Source: Methanobrevibacter sp. (lineage in GTDB: Archaea; Methanobacteriota; Methanobacteria; Methanobacteriales; Methanobacteriaceae). Taken from it: 64,000 bases of DNA. Made by a program: the position numbers and the translations under genes. How positions within the stretch are numbered: the first letter of the stretch is position 1; the number at the start of each line of letters is the position of its first letter. Under the pieces are notes generated by a model. The model did not search any database. It saw only the letters and a list, made by a program, of their open reading frames with translations, and was not told where the DNA came from. This document shows positions 28,431-34,755 of the stretch, piece by piece. The DNA lies in the NCBI RefSeq assembly GCF_015062935.1, contig NZ_SUTM01000005.1, positions 1 through 64,000 of the forward strand, given 5' to 3'.

Positions 28431-29765
28431 TTGTCATACGTAGATGAAGTAATAGAAACCATAATTGAACAAAACCCTTCAGAACCTGAATTCCACCAAG
28501 CAGTACGCGAAGTATTGGAATCCTTAAGGGTAGTAATTGAAGAAAACGAAGAAGAATACAGAAAAAATGCACTTCTTGAAAGATTAACCAATCCGGAAAG
28601 ACAACTCAAATTCCGTGTCCCATGGATTGACGACAACGGACAAGTACAAGTAAACACCGGATACAGAGTACAGTTCAACAGTGCAATCGGACCTTACAAA
28701 GGCGGATTACGTTTCCACCCATCTGTAAATGTCGGTATTATCAAATTCTTAGGTTTCGAACAAATTTTCAAAAACTCCTTGACCGGACTTCCAATCGGCG
28801 GAGGTAAAGGTGGATCCGACTTTGATCCTAAAGGAAAATCAGACAGAGAAATCATGGCATTCTGTCAATCTTTCATGACCGAGTTATGCAAATACATTGG
28901 TGCTGATACCGATGTTCCTGCTGGAGATATTGGAGTAGGCGGTCGCGAAATTGGTTTCTTATTCGGTCAATACAAAAGAATCAGAGGATTATACGAAGGA
29001 GTATTAACTGGTAAAGGATTATCATTCGGTGGATCTTTAGCAAGAACTGAAGCTACCGGATACGGATTATTATACTTCACAAACGCTATGTTAAAAGCAA
29101 ACGACATCGATATCGCAGGAAAAACCATCCTCGTATCCGGTGCAGGTAACGTAGCTATTTACGCAATCGAAAAAGCTCAACAATTAGGCGGTAAACCTGT
29201 AACCTGTTCCGATTCAACCGGTTGGATTTACGACCCTGAAGGAATCGACGTTGAATTATTAAAAGAAGTCAAAGAAGTAAGAAGAGAAAGATTAACTGCA
29301 TACGCAGAAGCAAGACCATCTGCTGAATACCACGAAGGTAAAGGTGTATGGACCGTTAAAGCTGACATCGCTCTTCCATGTGCTACCCAAAACGAATTGC
29401 AATTAGAAGATGCTAAAGCATTAGTTGAAAACGGTATTGTTGCAGTTGCTGAAGGAGCAAACATGCCAACCACAATCGAAGCAACCGAATACTTACAGGA
29501 AAATGGCGTATTATTCGCACCTGGTAAAGCTTCCAACGCTGGTGGAGTAGCTACTTCCGCTCTTGAAATGTCACAAAACTCCGAAAGATTATCCTGGTCT
29601 TTCGAAGAAGTTGACGGCAAACTTCAAAACATTATGGAAACTATCTTTGCAAATGTTGCAGAAGCTGCTGCTGAATACGACATGGACAAAAACTATGTTG
29701 CAGGAGCAAACATTGCAGGATTCAAGAAAGTTGTTGACGCTATGAACGCACAAGGAATCGTATAG
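28431..29765 (+). CDS. gdhA: Glutamate dehydrogenase (NADP-type, hexameric)
   Basis: Converts 2-oxoglutarate and ammonium to glutamate. It is 444 residues, standard for the bacterial-like hexameric enzyme. Key segments are [14 protein letters not shown], the catalytic Lys region [32 protein letters not shown], and the nucleotide-binding [11 protein letters not shown]. The start is TTG at 28431 ([11 protein letters not shown]), eight bases after GGAGG at 28419-28423. The frame runs open to an ATG at 28398, but that leaves the ribosome binding site inside the gene. The last codons form one arm of its own terminator, and the same 46 bases recur 1.6 kb downstream. Confidence 0.96.
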
Positions 29766-29792
29766 ATTTCTTTGTTTATTTTTTCTTTTTTT
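29747..29792 (+). repeat. 46-bp direct repeat, copy A (gdhA 3' end and terminator)
   Basis: It contains the last codons and stop of gdhA. A hairpin ACAAGGAA/TTCTTTGT (29750-29757 with 29768-29775, one G-U pair) is followed by a T-rich tract, forming an intrinsic terminator. It matches 45 of 46 bases at 31336-31381. The two copies flank the first ATPase gene. Confidence 0.9.
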
Positions 29793-30115
29793 TAAATTTT
29801 TTGATCTTTATTTAATTTATAACTTATTTTTTAGCATATTTATTTAAAATTAACATTGGTTTAGTAGATTAATTTATTTTAGAGTGTTTTTCTAGGGTTA
29901 TTATTTAGTGTGTTTTTGTGCAAAATCACACTTCCAAAAATTTCATTATTTTTCAATATATATTCTTTATTAGAATAACTTCAAGTTTTATTCTAATATT
30001 AAATACTTATTCTCTTAGTGAATAATTTTTATAATTATTTCACTAGTGAATACTTATTCTCTTAATAAATAACTTTATATGTTATTTAATGATACATAAT
30101 AAGTAAGGTGTAAAT
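29793..30115 (+). promoter_or_regulatory. Repeat-dense upstream region of ATPase cassette 1
   Basis: 29908-29922 holds GTGTGTTTTTGTGCA, found again before the second ATPase gene at 33231-33245. A nine-pair inverted repeat TTAGAATAA/TTATTCTAA follows near 29973-29999. The 16-base AATACTTATTCTCTTA occurs twice, at 30002-30017 and 30049-30064, with TAGTGAA/TTCACTA between. This looks like an operator region for a DNA-binding protein, possibly the winged-helix ATPase itself. Confidence 0.5.
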
Positions 30116-33456: not shown

Positions 33457-34677
33457 ATGATTAAACGGGAGTTGTATTTAAATCAAATTCGAAATCTTTT
33501 TGGAACGGATTTCATTAAGGTTATTGTAGGGCTTCGAAGATGCGGCAAAACTTCTTTACTTAAAAGCATAATTGAAGAGCTTCAAAATCAAGGTATAAAA
33601 AAAGAGAATATTATTTATATCTCATTTGAATTGGTTGAATATAAAAATATTTTCACATCCGAACAGTTAGATGAAACTGTATTAAATCTAACAAGCAACA
33701 TTGAAGGCAAAATATATCTTCTTTTTGATGAAATTCAACAGGTTGAATCCTGGGAAAAATCCATCAATTCTTATAGGGCTTCATTTGATTGTGATATTTA
33801 CATTACCGGATCCAATTCAAAACTATTGTCAAATGAATTGGCTACCCTTCTTGCTGGAAGATATATTAAAATCAGTTTGTATCCATTTTCATTTAAAGAG
33901 GTATTGCAATACCGCAGGGAAATTGATAAAATAAAATTAGATGGGGAATTCATTAAAAAACAATTTAATGAATATCTGTTATTTGGGGGTATGCCTGGTT
34001 TGCTTGCAATAAGAGATGATGATACAAAAATCAATGCTCTTCAAGACATTTATGATTCAATAATTGTTCATGATATTCTCTCAAGATATACTATAAATGA
34101 AATTGATTTATTTAAACGTTTTTCACATTATCTAATGAATTCTACTGGACAAACTTTCTCTAAAACCAGTATTACAAATTATCTAAAAAGTGAAAATAAA
34201 AGAACAACACGTAATACTATCTCAAATTTCACGGATTATCTTAAAGACTCATTATTCTGCAAAATGGTAAGACGTCAGGATATTTTGGGTAAAAAAATAC
34301 TAAAAACTGAAGAAAAATATTATTTGACAGATCAAGGTTTCCACCATGCATTGGTTGACAATAACAATAACTGGTTAGGCAGGATTTTGGAAAATGTTGT
34401 TTTCAACGAATTAGTTAGAAGGGGTTATTCTGTAAAAATTGGAAAGATTCGTAATAAGGAAATAGATTTTGTTTGTGAAAAACATGACAATAAGATATAT
34501 GTTCAAGTAGCATATATTTTATCTTCTTCCGAAACAATTGAAAGAGAATTTTCACCGTTAATGGATGTTCCGGATAAGTATGATGCTTATGTTTTAAGCA
34601 TGGATGAATTTGACATGTCTCGGGATGGAATTAAACATAAAAACATCATTGATTTCTTATTGGATGATGAAATTTAG
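33457..34677 (+). CDS. AAA ATPase with DUF4143 domain (cassette 2)
   Basis: A 406-residue ATPase of the AAA_14/DUF4143 type. Walker A is GLRRCGKT (about residues 25-32), Walker B is YLLFDEIQQV (about 88-97), and ITGSNSKLLSNELATLLAGRY is the family signature. The C-terminal part (about 250-400) is the DUF4143 region with EIDFVCEKHDNKIYVQVAY, a nuclease-fold-like strand pattern. Such genes are multicopy in many archaea and anaerobic bacteria and tend to be mobile or defence-associated; no function is established. The upstream and downstream flanks resemble those of the 30116-31300 ATPase although the proteins belong to different ATPase branches. Confidence 0.87.
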   Translation: MIKRELYLNQIRNLFGTDFIKVIVGLRRCGKTSLLKSIIEELQNQGIKKENIIYISFELVEYKNIFTSEQLDETVLNLTSNIEGKIYLLFDEIQQVESWEKSINSYRASFDCDIYITGSNSKLLSNELATLLAGRYIKISLYPFSFKEVLQYRREIDKIKLDGEFIKKQFNEYLLFGGMPGLLAIRDDDTKINALQDIYDSIIVHDILSRYTINEIDLFKRFSHYLMNSTGQTFSKTSITNYLKSENKRTTRNTISNFTDYLKDSLFCKMVRRQDILGKKILKTEEKYYLTDQGFHHALVDNNNNWLGRILENVVFNELVRRGYSVKIGKIRNKEIDFVCEKHDNKIYVQVAYILSSSETIEREFSPLMDVPDKYDAYVLSMDEFDMSRDGIKHKNIIDFLLDDEI

Positions 34678-34680
34678 AAA

Positions 34681-34755
34681 AGTAGGGAGGTTCCACTTAA
34701 TTCTTGCATAATGTATAGGTCATTGTTTATTTTTTAATCTTATTGTGCAAGAATT
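34681..34755 (+). repeat. 3' box and U-rich repeat copy D, end of ATPase cassette 2
   Basis: AGTAGGGAGG (34681-34690) starts three bases after the stop and aligns with 31312 onward. Copy D at 34706-34735 is a diverged version of the 31338-31375 repeat and keeps a small AATG/CATT hairpin before the T tract. A ten-pair inverted repeat, AATTCTTGCA (34699-34708) and TGCAAGAATT (34746-34755), encloses it. TTGTGCAAGAAT in the second arm also occurs at the left end of the TnpB element (49880). Confidence 0.6.

Follow-up and report, generated by a model that had tools for sequence, protein, structure and literature searches.

Two ATPase genes lying behind the glutamate dehydrogenase gene gdhA in a 64,000-nucleotide stretch of Methanobrevibacter sp. 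DNA (the window; contig C5 of the genome labelled G000) are probably the cargo of small, non-autonomous, integron-like mobile cassettes with the 3' end of gdhA as their site-specific integration target. This end looks like a docking site, at which cassettes of one or a few genes are inserted successively and exchanged between species. In the window the two cassettes are bounded by ends of one kind, but only cassette 1 (29747-31344) is complete, cassette 2 being truncated on the left. Comparisons were made with 67 congeneric genomes (relatives are labelled G0xx, and stretches fetched from them Lxxx), 60 of which contain a gdhA orthologue. The stretches behind gdhA yielded 46 alignable gdhA sites in 45 genomes, while 10 of the 60 gdhA-containing genomes gave no downstream view, the gdhA contig ending at or in gdhA (G005, G020, G043, G045, G046, G047, G051, G052, G057 and G064). 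The gdhA locus and the two cassettes comprise the following features:

28398-29765, + strand: gdhA (glutamate dehydrogenase), an open reading frame (ORF) whose 3' end is the attachment site
29747-29792, + strand: left attachment site, made up of the CGCACAAGG core and a terminator-bearing tail; 45 other gdhA sites align with it
29908-29922, + strand: 5' (leader) box of cassette 1, GTGTGTTTTTGTGCA, located by motif search, 208 bp before the ATPase start
30116-31300, + strand: cargo of cassette 1, an ATPase_2-type ATPase (ATPase1; Pfam ATPase_2, 1.3e-15), 1180/1185 nucleotides identical to the G048 cassette
31310-31328, + strand: 3' box AAAGTAGGGCGGTATCACC of cassette 1, with the core 26 bp from the box start, as at 22 other box hits
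31320-31335, + strand: hypervariable stretch of 16 bp that covers the end of the box and extends to the core, 44/64 identical in four non-independent pairs
31336-31382, + strand: right attachment site, CGCACAAGG core plus gdhA-like tail, from repeat comparison and alignment of ends
33103-33135, + strand: left border of cassette 2, without its core but still with tail and terminator (repeat families D1 and D2)
33231-33245, + strand: 5' (leader) box of cassette 2, GTGTGTTTTTGTGCA, located by motif search, 226 bp before the ATPase start
33457-34677, + strand: cargo of cassette 2, an AAA_14-DUF4143 ATPase (ATPase2; Pfam; PADLOC PDC-S01, 5.1e-147, residues 1-404)
34680-34697, + strand: 3' box of cassette 2, located by motif search
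34702-34740, + strand: degenerate core plus tail at the right end of cassette 2, read from the sequence and by repeat comparison

Attachment site at the 3' end of gdhA

An earlier note on this DNA, made from the sequence alone, had reported a U-rich repeat at both borders of each ATPase gene. The repeat was recovered at 29762, 31351, 33103 and about 34720, with a spacing of 1589, 1752 and about 1610 bp between successive copies. The left copy is not intergenic, however, but is the 3' end of gdhA with its terminator; the note had missed this identity and, with it, the attachment site. The repeat consists of the last gdhA codons, the stop codon and the terminator (CGCACAAGGAATCGTATAGATTTCCTTG plus a T-rich run), the core and tail of gdhA encoding the final residues AQGIV and the stop, with the T-rich run next. 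Cassette 2 has border repeats as well, although the copy at 33103 keeps the terminator half only and that at about 34702-34740 is degenerate. The left site and positions 31337-31381 form a 45-bp direct repeat of 97.8% identity that includes the gdhA codons, and the copy behind ATPase1 starts 26 bp after the start of the 3' box. Taken with the 3' box before it, this copy is built like an attachment site by which the target gene is restored. As in site-specific elements, the core is directly repeated at both ends and the target gene end is restored.

The tail reads in frame to the stop at 46/46 gdhA sites versus 22/43 internal copies; gdhA tails that stay in frame while buried copies drift would be expected if insertion rebuilds the gdhA end. 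This result covers the tail only: the gdhA of G040 (L206, before 1388) appears frameshifted upstream, near the C-terminus, where two overlapping matches were obtained, which may be an assembly error. The tail forms a hairpin with T residues behind it; z-scores were -3.3 to -4.9 in four folds that included the tail and -0.95 and -1.36 in two folds of a stretch without most of it, and the predicted hairpin plus T probably terminates gdhA. A small box hairpin folded in two of three sites tried, the strong z-scores coming mostly from the terminator hairpin.

In the mechanism that we propose, the core of a circular cassette would recombine with the core in gdhA, leading to insertion. The copy supplied by the cassette would make the gdhA end whole again, and a fresh core would remain, at which further cassettes could queue in the same orientation. 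A tyrosine recombinase like that found behind gdhA in G017 would catalyse the reaction in trans. The cassettes, many of them with toxin-antitoxin or candidate-defence genes, move between Methanobrevibacter species.

Distribution of the box and core motifs

The cassette end is laid out as the box (AAAGTAGGGNGGTNNCACC), a 7-bp spacer and the core (CGCACAAGG), after which the final codons, stop and terminator of gdhA are repeated. The AGTAGGG-N-GGT box, described in the earlier note as lying 3-11 bases after the ATPase stop codons, does start at 31312 (11 bp past the stop) and 34681 (3 bp past the stop). A total of 43 right-ends, picked by a script requiring the box 4-9 bp ahead of the core, gave the aligned consensus AAAGTAGGGTGGTATCACC-N2-ATTCCCGCACAAGGAATCGTATAGATTTCCTTGTTTATTTTTT; 29 of the 43 share a stretch with gdhA. 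The 3' box (at most two mismatches) was present in 20/67 and the core (at most three mismatches) in 40/67 congeneric genomes, and the same patterns read backwards in 0/67. No box-core was seen at five more distant gdhA loci outside the 46 (G061, G024, G007, G029 and G009). Throughout the family, the box (at most one mismatch) was found in 20/67 genomes of this genus versus 1/71 of other genera, the reversed box pattern giving four hits in all 138 family genomes. A stricter exact pattern occurred in five named genome records, all Methanobrevibacter, and among viral contigs there was no match to the exact box-core pattern or to the G017 recombinase.

These distributions bear on whether the boxes are ordinary promoter or terminator signals common to unrelated genes, as would have been indicated had they turned up beside many ordinary genes. 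The probable termination of gdhA by the tail hairpin plus T fits such a reading. Against it, a gdhA-like core stands 26 bp after the box start in 23/27 box hits across the genus (22 with at most two core mismatches, one with three), and the box is absent from 70/71 family genomes of other genera, which makes ordinary signals a very improbable explanation. The four box hits without a core at this distance comprise chance-like hits in G008 and on contig C61 of G053, a box without core in the gdhA locus of G015, and an inverted box touching gdhA in G017.

The 5' box GTGTGTTTTTGTGCA, which had been placed 208 and 226 bp before the ATPase starts, was located there (29908 and 33231), and its exact sequence has only these two occurrences in the whole G000 genome. 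In relatives it recurs in both ATPase and toxin-antitoxin cassettes, in most cases 100-215 bp downstream of a core, but was not seen in GNAT cassettes at up to three mismatches, and is therefore not a required end. About 40 bp around it (GTGTGTTTTTGTGCAAARTCRCACTTCCAAAA, for example 29908-29950 in the window) are conserved in ATPase and toxin-antitoxin cassettes and were not seen in GNAT cassettes; this conserved leader may be a promoter or a second recombinase site.

Occupancy and cargo

Nineteen of the 46 gdhA loci (18/45 genomes) were occupied, by one to three parsed cassettes each. The 36 parsed intervals, which include one duplicate (L208, another contig of the assembly that holds L043, repeating the latter's first interval), range from 720 to 3776 bp and carry unrelated cargo between the same ends. 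Remnants were present at a few of the other 27 loci, for example ATPase1 sequence in G006, a box-less toxin-antitoxin pair in G042 and a box-less core in G021. Cargo was typed by tblastn with 20 representatives from these arrays and named from Pfam. ParE-type toxin-antitoxin pairs were the most frequent type (9 intervals), followed by ATPase_2-type ATPases (6), GNAT proteins (5, one on the duplicate contig), AAA_14-DUF4143 ATPases (3), a protein without Pfam match (2) and adhesin-like proteins (2). DUF3990 with a partner, Bro-N, RhuM plus a MazE-like antitoxin, an SDH-type protease and a TrkH-like protein (by eye) were found in one interval each, and four intervals matched none of the 20 representatives.

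The two ATPases of the window belong to different branches (Pfam ATPase_2 and AAA_14-DUF4143, respectively), as had been proposed; the winged helix ascribed to ATPase1 was not shown by Pfam. Both carry the cassette ends, as would be expected if the ATPases themselves drove mobility, but cassettes with only toxin-antitoxin, GNAT or DUF3990 genes carry the same ends, so that this explanation is largely refuted and extremely improbable.

Among eight cargo proteins tested against PADLOC candidate-defence models, four gave strong matches: the AAA_14-DUF4143 ATPase (PDC-S01, 5.1e-147), DUF3990 (PDC-M10A), RhuM (PDC-S05) and the AAA_21 ATPase of a G019 contig (HEC-01A). ATPase2 is by this match a member of the PDC-S01 candidate defence family. 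Matches were weak for a DUF4276 protein and ATPase1, and neither the GNAT protein nor the protease had a match. By label, roughly 15/36 intervals would be toxin-antitoxin or candidate-defence cassettes, and a role in defence may be envisaged for these.

Exchange between species

The ATPase1 cassette was recently exchanged between species. Between G000 and G048, gdhA was 82% identical (414/505), the leader 98.4% (317/322) and the ATPase1 gene 99.6% (1180/1185). At the ends, identity was 38/46 for the left core plus tail, 31/37 from box to core, 26/45 for the right core plus tail and 6/18 for the next 18 bp, and the 2.5 kb behind the G048 cassette had no match in window positions 31383-40000. 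Together with the sharing of ends by unrelated genes, this bears out the suggestion in the earlier note of an exchangeable cassette as opposed to gene duplication. Likewise, toxin-antitoxin cassettes of G060 and G019 were 98.7% identical versus 88.9% for gdhA. Over all pairs compared (G004, G048 and G011 were skipped, their gdhA sequence not being at hand, and G048 was compared separately with 505 bp of gdhA), cassette identity was unrelated to gdhA identity for toxin-antitoxin cassettes (r 0.13, 28 pairs) and GNAT cassettes (r -0.03, 14 pairs, duplicates included), and weakly related for ATPase2 (r 0.32, 10 pairs).

Occupied and empty target sites, as known for site-specific elements, are both present in relatives. 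At the empty site of G023, gdhA is followed by about 0.4 kb and then by the glutamine synthetase gene glnA, and in G010 a GNAT cassette lies between the two genes; arrays also lie ahead of glnA in G055 and on a G019 contig. In another clade, G036 and G039 are without cassette, and the sequence close behind their gdhA sits behind the cassette in G048 and G030, G050 likewise serving as a comparison for G030.

Candidate recombinase

In G017, gdhA is followed by an inverted 3' box and then by a tyrosine-recombinase-like gene. A longer relative in G004 matches this gene over residues 26-364 in one open frame, the catalytic part being open, and a decayed relative occupies the same place behind gdhA in G022. 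G013 has nucleotide similarity to G017 only (78% over a 267-bp span that includes about 40 bp of gdhA). The active site of tyrosine recombinases consists of R, H-x-x-R and Y; in 13 aligned family members, H-x-x-R and Y were invariant, and the first arginine, present in G017, was lysine in several members. Searched against PDB, the family profile matched XerA best (1.1e-5) and, weakly and on a short N-terminal stretch, IntI4 (E 0.016), and in Pfam the G017 recombinase had a weak Phage_integr_3 match and no IntI match. The window cassettes have no recombinase in the ORF list and in this differ from site-specific elements with their own integrase.

A different enzyme, such as a host Xer-type resolvase or another related recombinase, could do the work, with the G017 enzyme as a bystander. 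Matches to the G017 recombinase are present in 57/67 genomes, at 1-13 per genome, a distant relative opens the G019 array contig ahead of a candidate-defence pair and box-core, and the G017 gene itself appears incomplete; pdif modules provide a precedent for mobilisation by a Xer-type enzyme. On the other side, the G017-type gene was the sole recombinase gene to turn up immediately after gdhA, its catalytic part open in one case and the gene decayed in the other (other recombinase families were not searched locus by locus), and G017 has an inverted box beside the core. We regard a different enzyme as possible but rather doubtful, and a G017-type recombinase acting in trans as the preferred candidate.

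A close relative of the G017 recombinase in G004 (L209, 7039-10316) starts about 57 bp behind lysS (by eye) and another, in G046, sits behind a flavin-enzyme-like gene (by eye), which suggests that the subfamily to which the gdhA recombinase belongs may target other gene 3' ends. An extension of this to all related recombinases as 3'-end integrases was not supported by five of six distant G000 paralogues examined: four of the five have no same-strand gene (at least 80 amino acids) ending within 400 bp before their start, the fifth has one that ends 267 bp ahead of it, and none of the five showed a direct repeat of the upstream end, one 14-bp match beginning at the gene's own start. On contig C30 of G019 (L195, 71-3100), a distant tyrosine recombinase, the AAA_21 ATPase (HEC-01A-like) and a DUF4276-like protein are followed by box-core and a toxin-antitoxin cassette; this unit is possibly a recombinase-bearing cassette.

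Observations against site-specific insertion

Several observations weigh against cassettes that insert site-specifically at gdhA. Most of the 67 genomes are draft assemblies in many contigs, and 14/43 right-ends lie on stretches without gdhA (G019, G064, G011, G043 and G051), some of them at contig ends. In G011 (L200) and G051 (L203), several kb of other genes precede the box-core array with no gdhA on the stretch, and gdhA was not found in G011; these arrays are possibly secondary array loci. No circle or excision was observed. The first residues and the C-terminal extension of the G017 recombinase gene were not found in frame, and the far end of its element was not assembled. A G017-type recombinase lies within 3 kb behind gdhA in only 2/46 loci, from which mobilisation in trans, or by another related recombinase, is what we infer. 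In the case of ATPase1, cassette identity tracks that of gdhA (r 0.96, 6 pairs; G048 and G004 left out).

The junctions are a further difficulty. In four pairs with cassette bodies more than 90% identical, taken from 40 compared, the 16 bp left of the core were 44/64 identical as against 94.9% for the bodies; the pairs are non-independent, three of the four sharing the same three toxin-antitoxin cassettes. The corresponding figures are 11/16 for G000-G048 and 10/16 for G060-G019, and identical versions of the stretch occur on different cassettes. Tails of near-identical cassettes also differ somewhat (38/46 for G000-G048), and neither difference is predicted by a single core crossover. In addition, two tail types are placed opposite ways in G004/G058 and G041/G048. 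The hypervariable 16 bp and this opposite arrangement suggest that recombination or conversion between cassette sites may be more complex than one core crossover.

Alternatively, the ends could have arisen once, the cassettes then being shuffled by homologous recombination between the gdhA-tail repeats with no active recombinase. Tail repeats of about 45 bp do flank the cassettes, the G000-G048 identity block ends near the repeats, and the box-core stretch varies independently of the gene. This would leave unexplained how one box came to stand at a constant 26 bp from the core on unrelated genes, as well as array growth in one orientation, and we consider it unlikely.

Relation to known systems

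Integron cassettes are known to carry toxin-antitoxin cargo, and attC core motifs are GTTRRRY and RYYYAAC. Each motif occurred at 0/43 of our sites (4.7 and 2.8, respectively, expected from mononucleotide shuffles), no IntI-type integrase next to attI was found by Pfam or by profile against PDB, and the cassettes land at the gdhA 3' end and not at attI. Archaeal integrative elements encode an integrase of their own along with replication or viral genes, in contrast to the window cassettes, which carry cargo only, and stack. In staphylococci, staphylococcal cassette chromosome (SCC) and pseudo-SCC elements insert site-specifically, again and again, at the 3' end of the protein gene rlmH, some of them without a recombinase; SCC elements use serine recombinases and are tens of kb long. 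The gdhA cassettes share this mode of insertion but differ in the implied tyrosine recombinase and in unit size (0.7-3.8 kb). Tycheposons and pdif modules are also small cargo modules between recombinase sites, in tRNA genes and at Xer sites, but in other hosts and at sites other than gdhA.

Nearest in the literature are the accounts of archaeal integrons (PMC9668308) and of archaeal tyrosine recombinases (PMC8371274). The former reports clusters of attC sites lacking an integrase (CALIN) in archaeal metagenome-assembled genomes; integron cassettes and CALIN, as described there, resemble the gdhA cassettes in their small same-orientation arrays, the recombination site at the 3' end and the integrase that is usually missing. 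Integrative elements with tyrosine recombinases, as covered in the latter, are alike in having an att core at both ends. No description of such a system was found in open-access literature on Methanobrevibacter, archaeal integrons and analogues, a body that leaves most subscription papers and all bioRxiv preprints outside. According to PMC12134362, M. smithii excises from its chromosome a 2.9-kb circle with metabolic genes, no integrase gene and no direct repeats detected; the cassette system may bear on this circle of unknown mechanism, a putative link.

That archaeal cassette exchange evolved independently of integrons, with gdhA as landing pad, a gdhA-repairing end plus protein-binding box, a trans-acting tyrosine recombinase and a defence and toxin-antitoxin pool shared across gut and rumen Methanobrevibacter, is a broader interpretation that we advance tentatively, as possible rather than probable. 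If true, gut and rumen methanogens could pick up and stack single genes, and cassette capture of the integron kind would have arisen using another enzyme and another landing site. Sequence searches with the box-core motif can locate the cargo, in which unknown anti-virus genes are likely to be found, and the gdhA site may offer a gene-insertion site in Methanobrevibacter.

Neighbouring features

The following features lie between the two cassettes and to the right of the array:

31482-31650, + strand: ferredoxin gene carrying a TAG in frame at 31560 and unlikely to be a cassette; read from the sequence, G055 keeping only its leader
31654-32832, + strand: geranylgeranyl-reductase-like gene (name by eye), here in a second copy and unlikely to be a cassette; the other G000 copy is at C4:146782 (78%)
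32838-33100, + strand: truncated remnant of a toxin-antitoxin cassette, 92% to the G055 toxin-antitoxin cassette over 263 bp
36274-37611, + strand: glutamine synthetase gene (glnA; name by eye), the right neighbour of the array in several relatives

The order gdhA-ATPase1-ferredoxin, conservation of which would have spoken against a cassette, is not conserved: at the nucleotide level the ferredoxin-reductase pair was unmatched in 60 other stretches, most of them behind gdhA. The pair was considered as a third cassette and rejected, as relatives in G049, G028, G060, G012, G011 and G014 have no box or core on the gene strand within the fetched 6-8.5 kb, and in G055 the leader alone lies right behind the cassette site. 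It is probably native or separately acquired, given the other copy in G000, the leader alone in G055, and the 95% relative of the reductase-like gene in G049, which adjoins a P-II-like gene (by eye) without box or core. The position of the in-frame TAG in the ferredoxin gene is a sense codon in relatives (L216 and L218).

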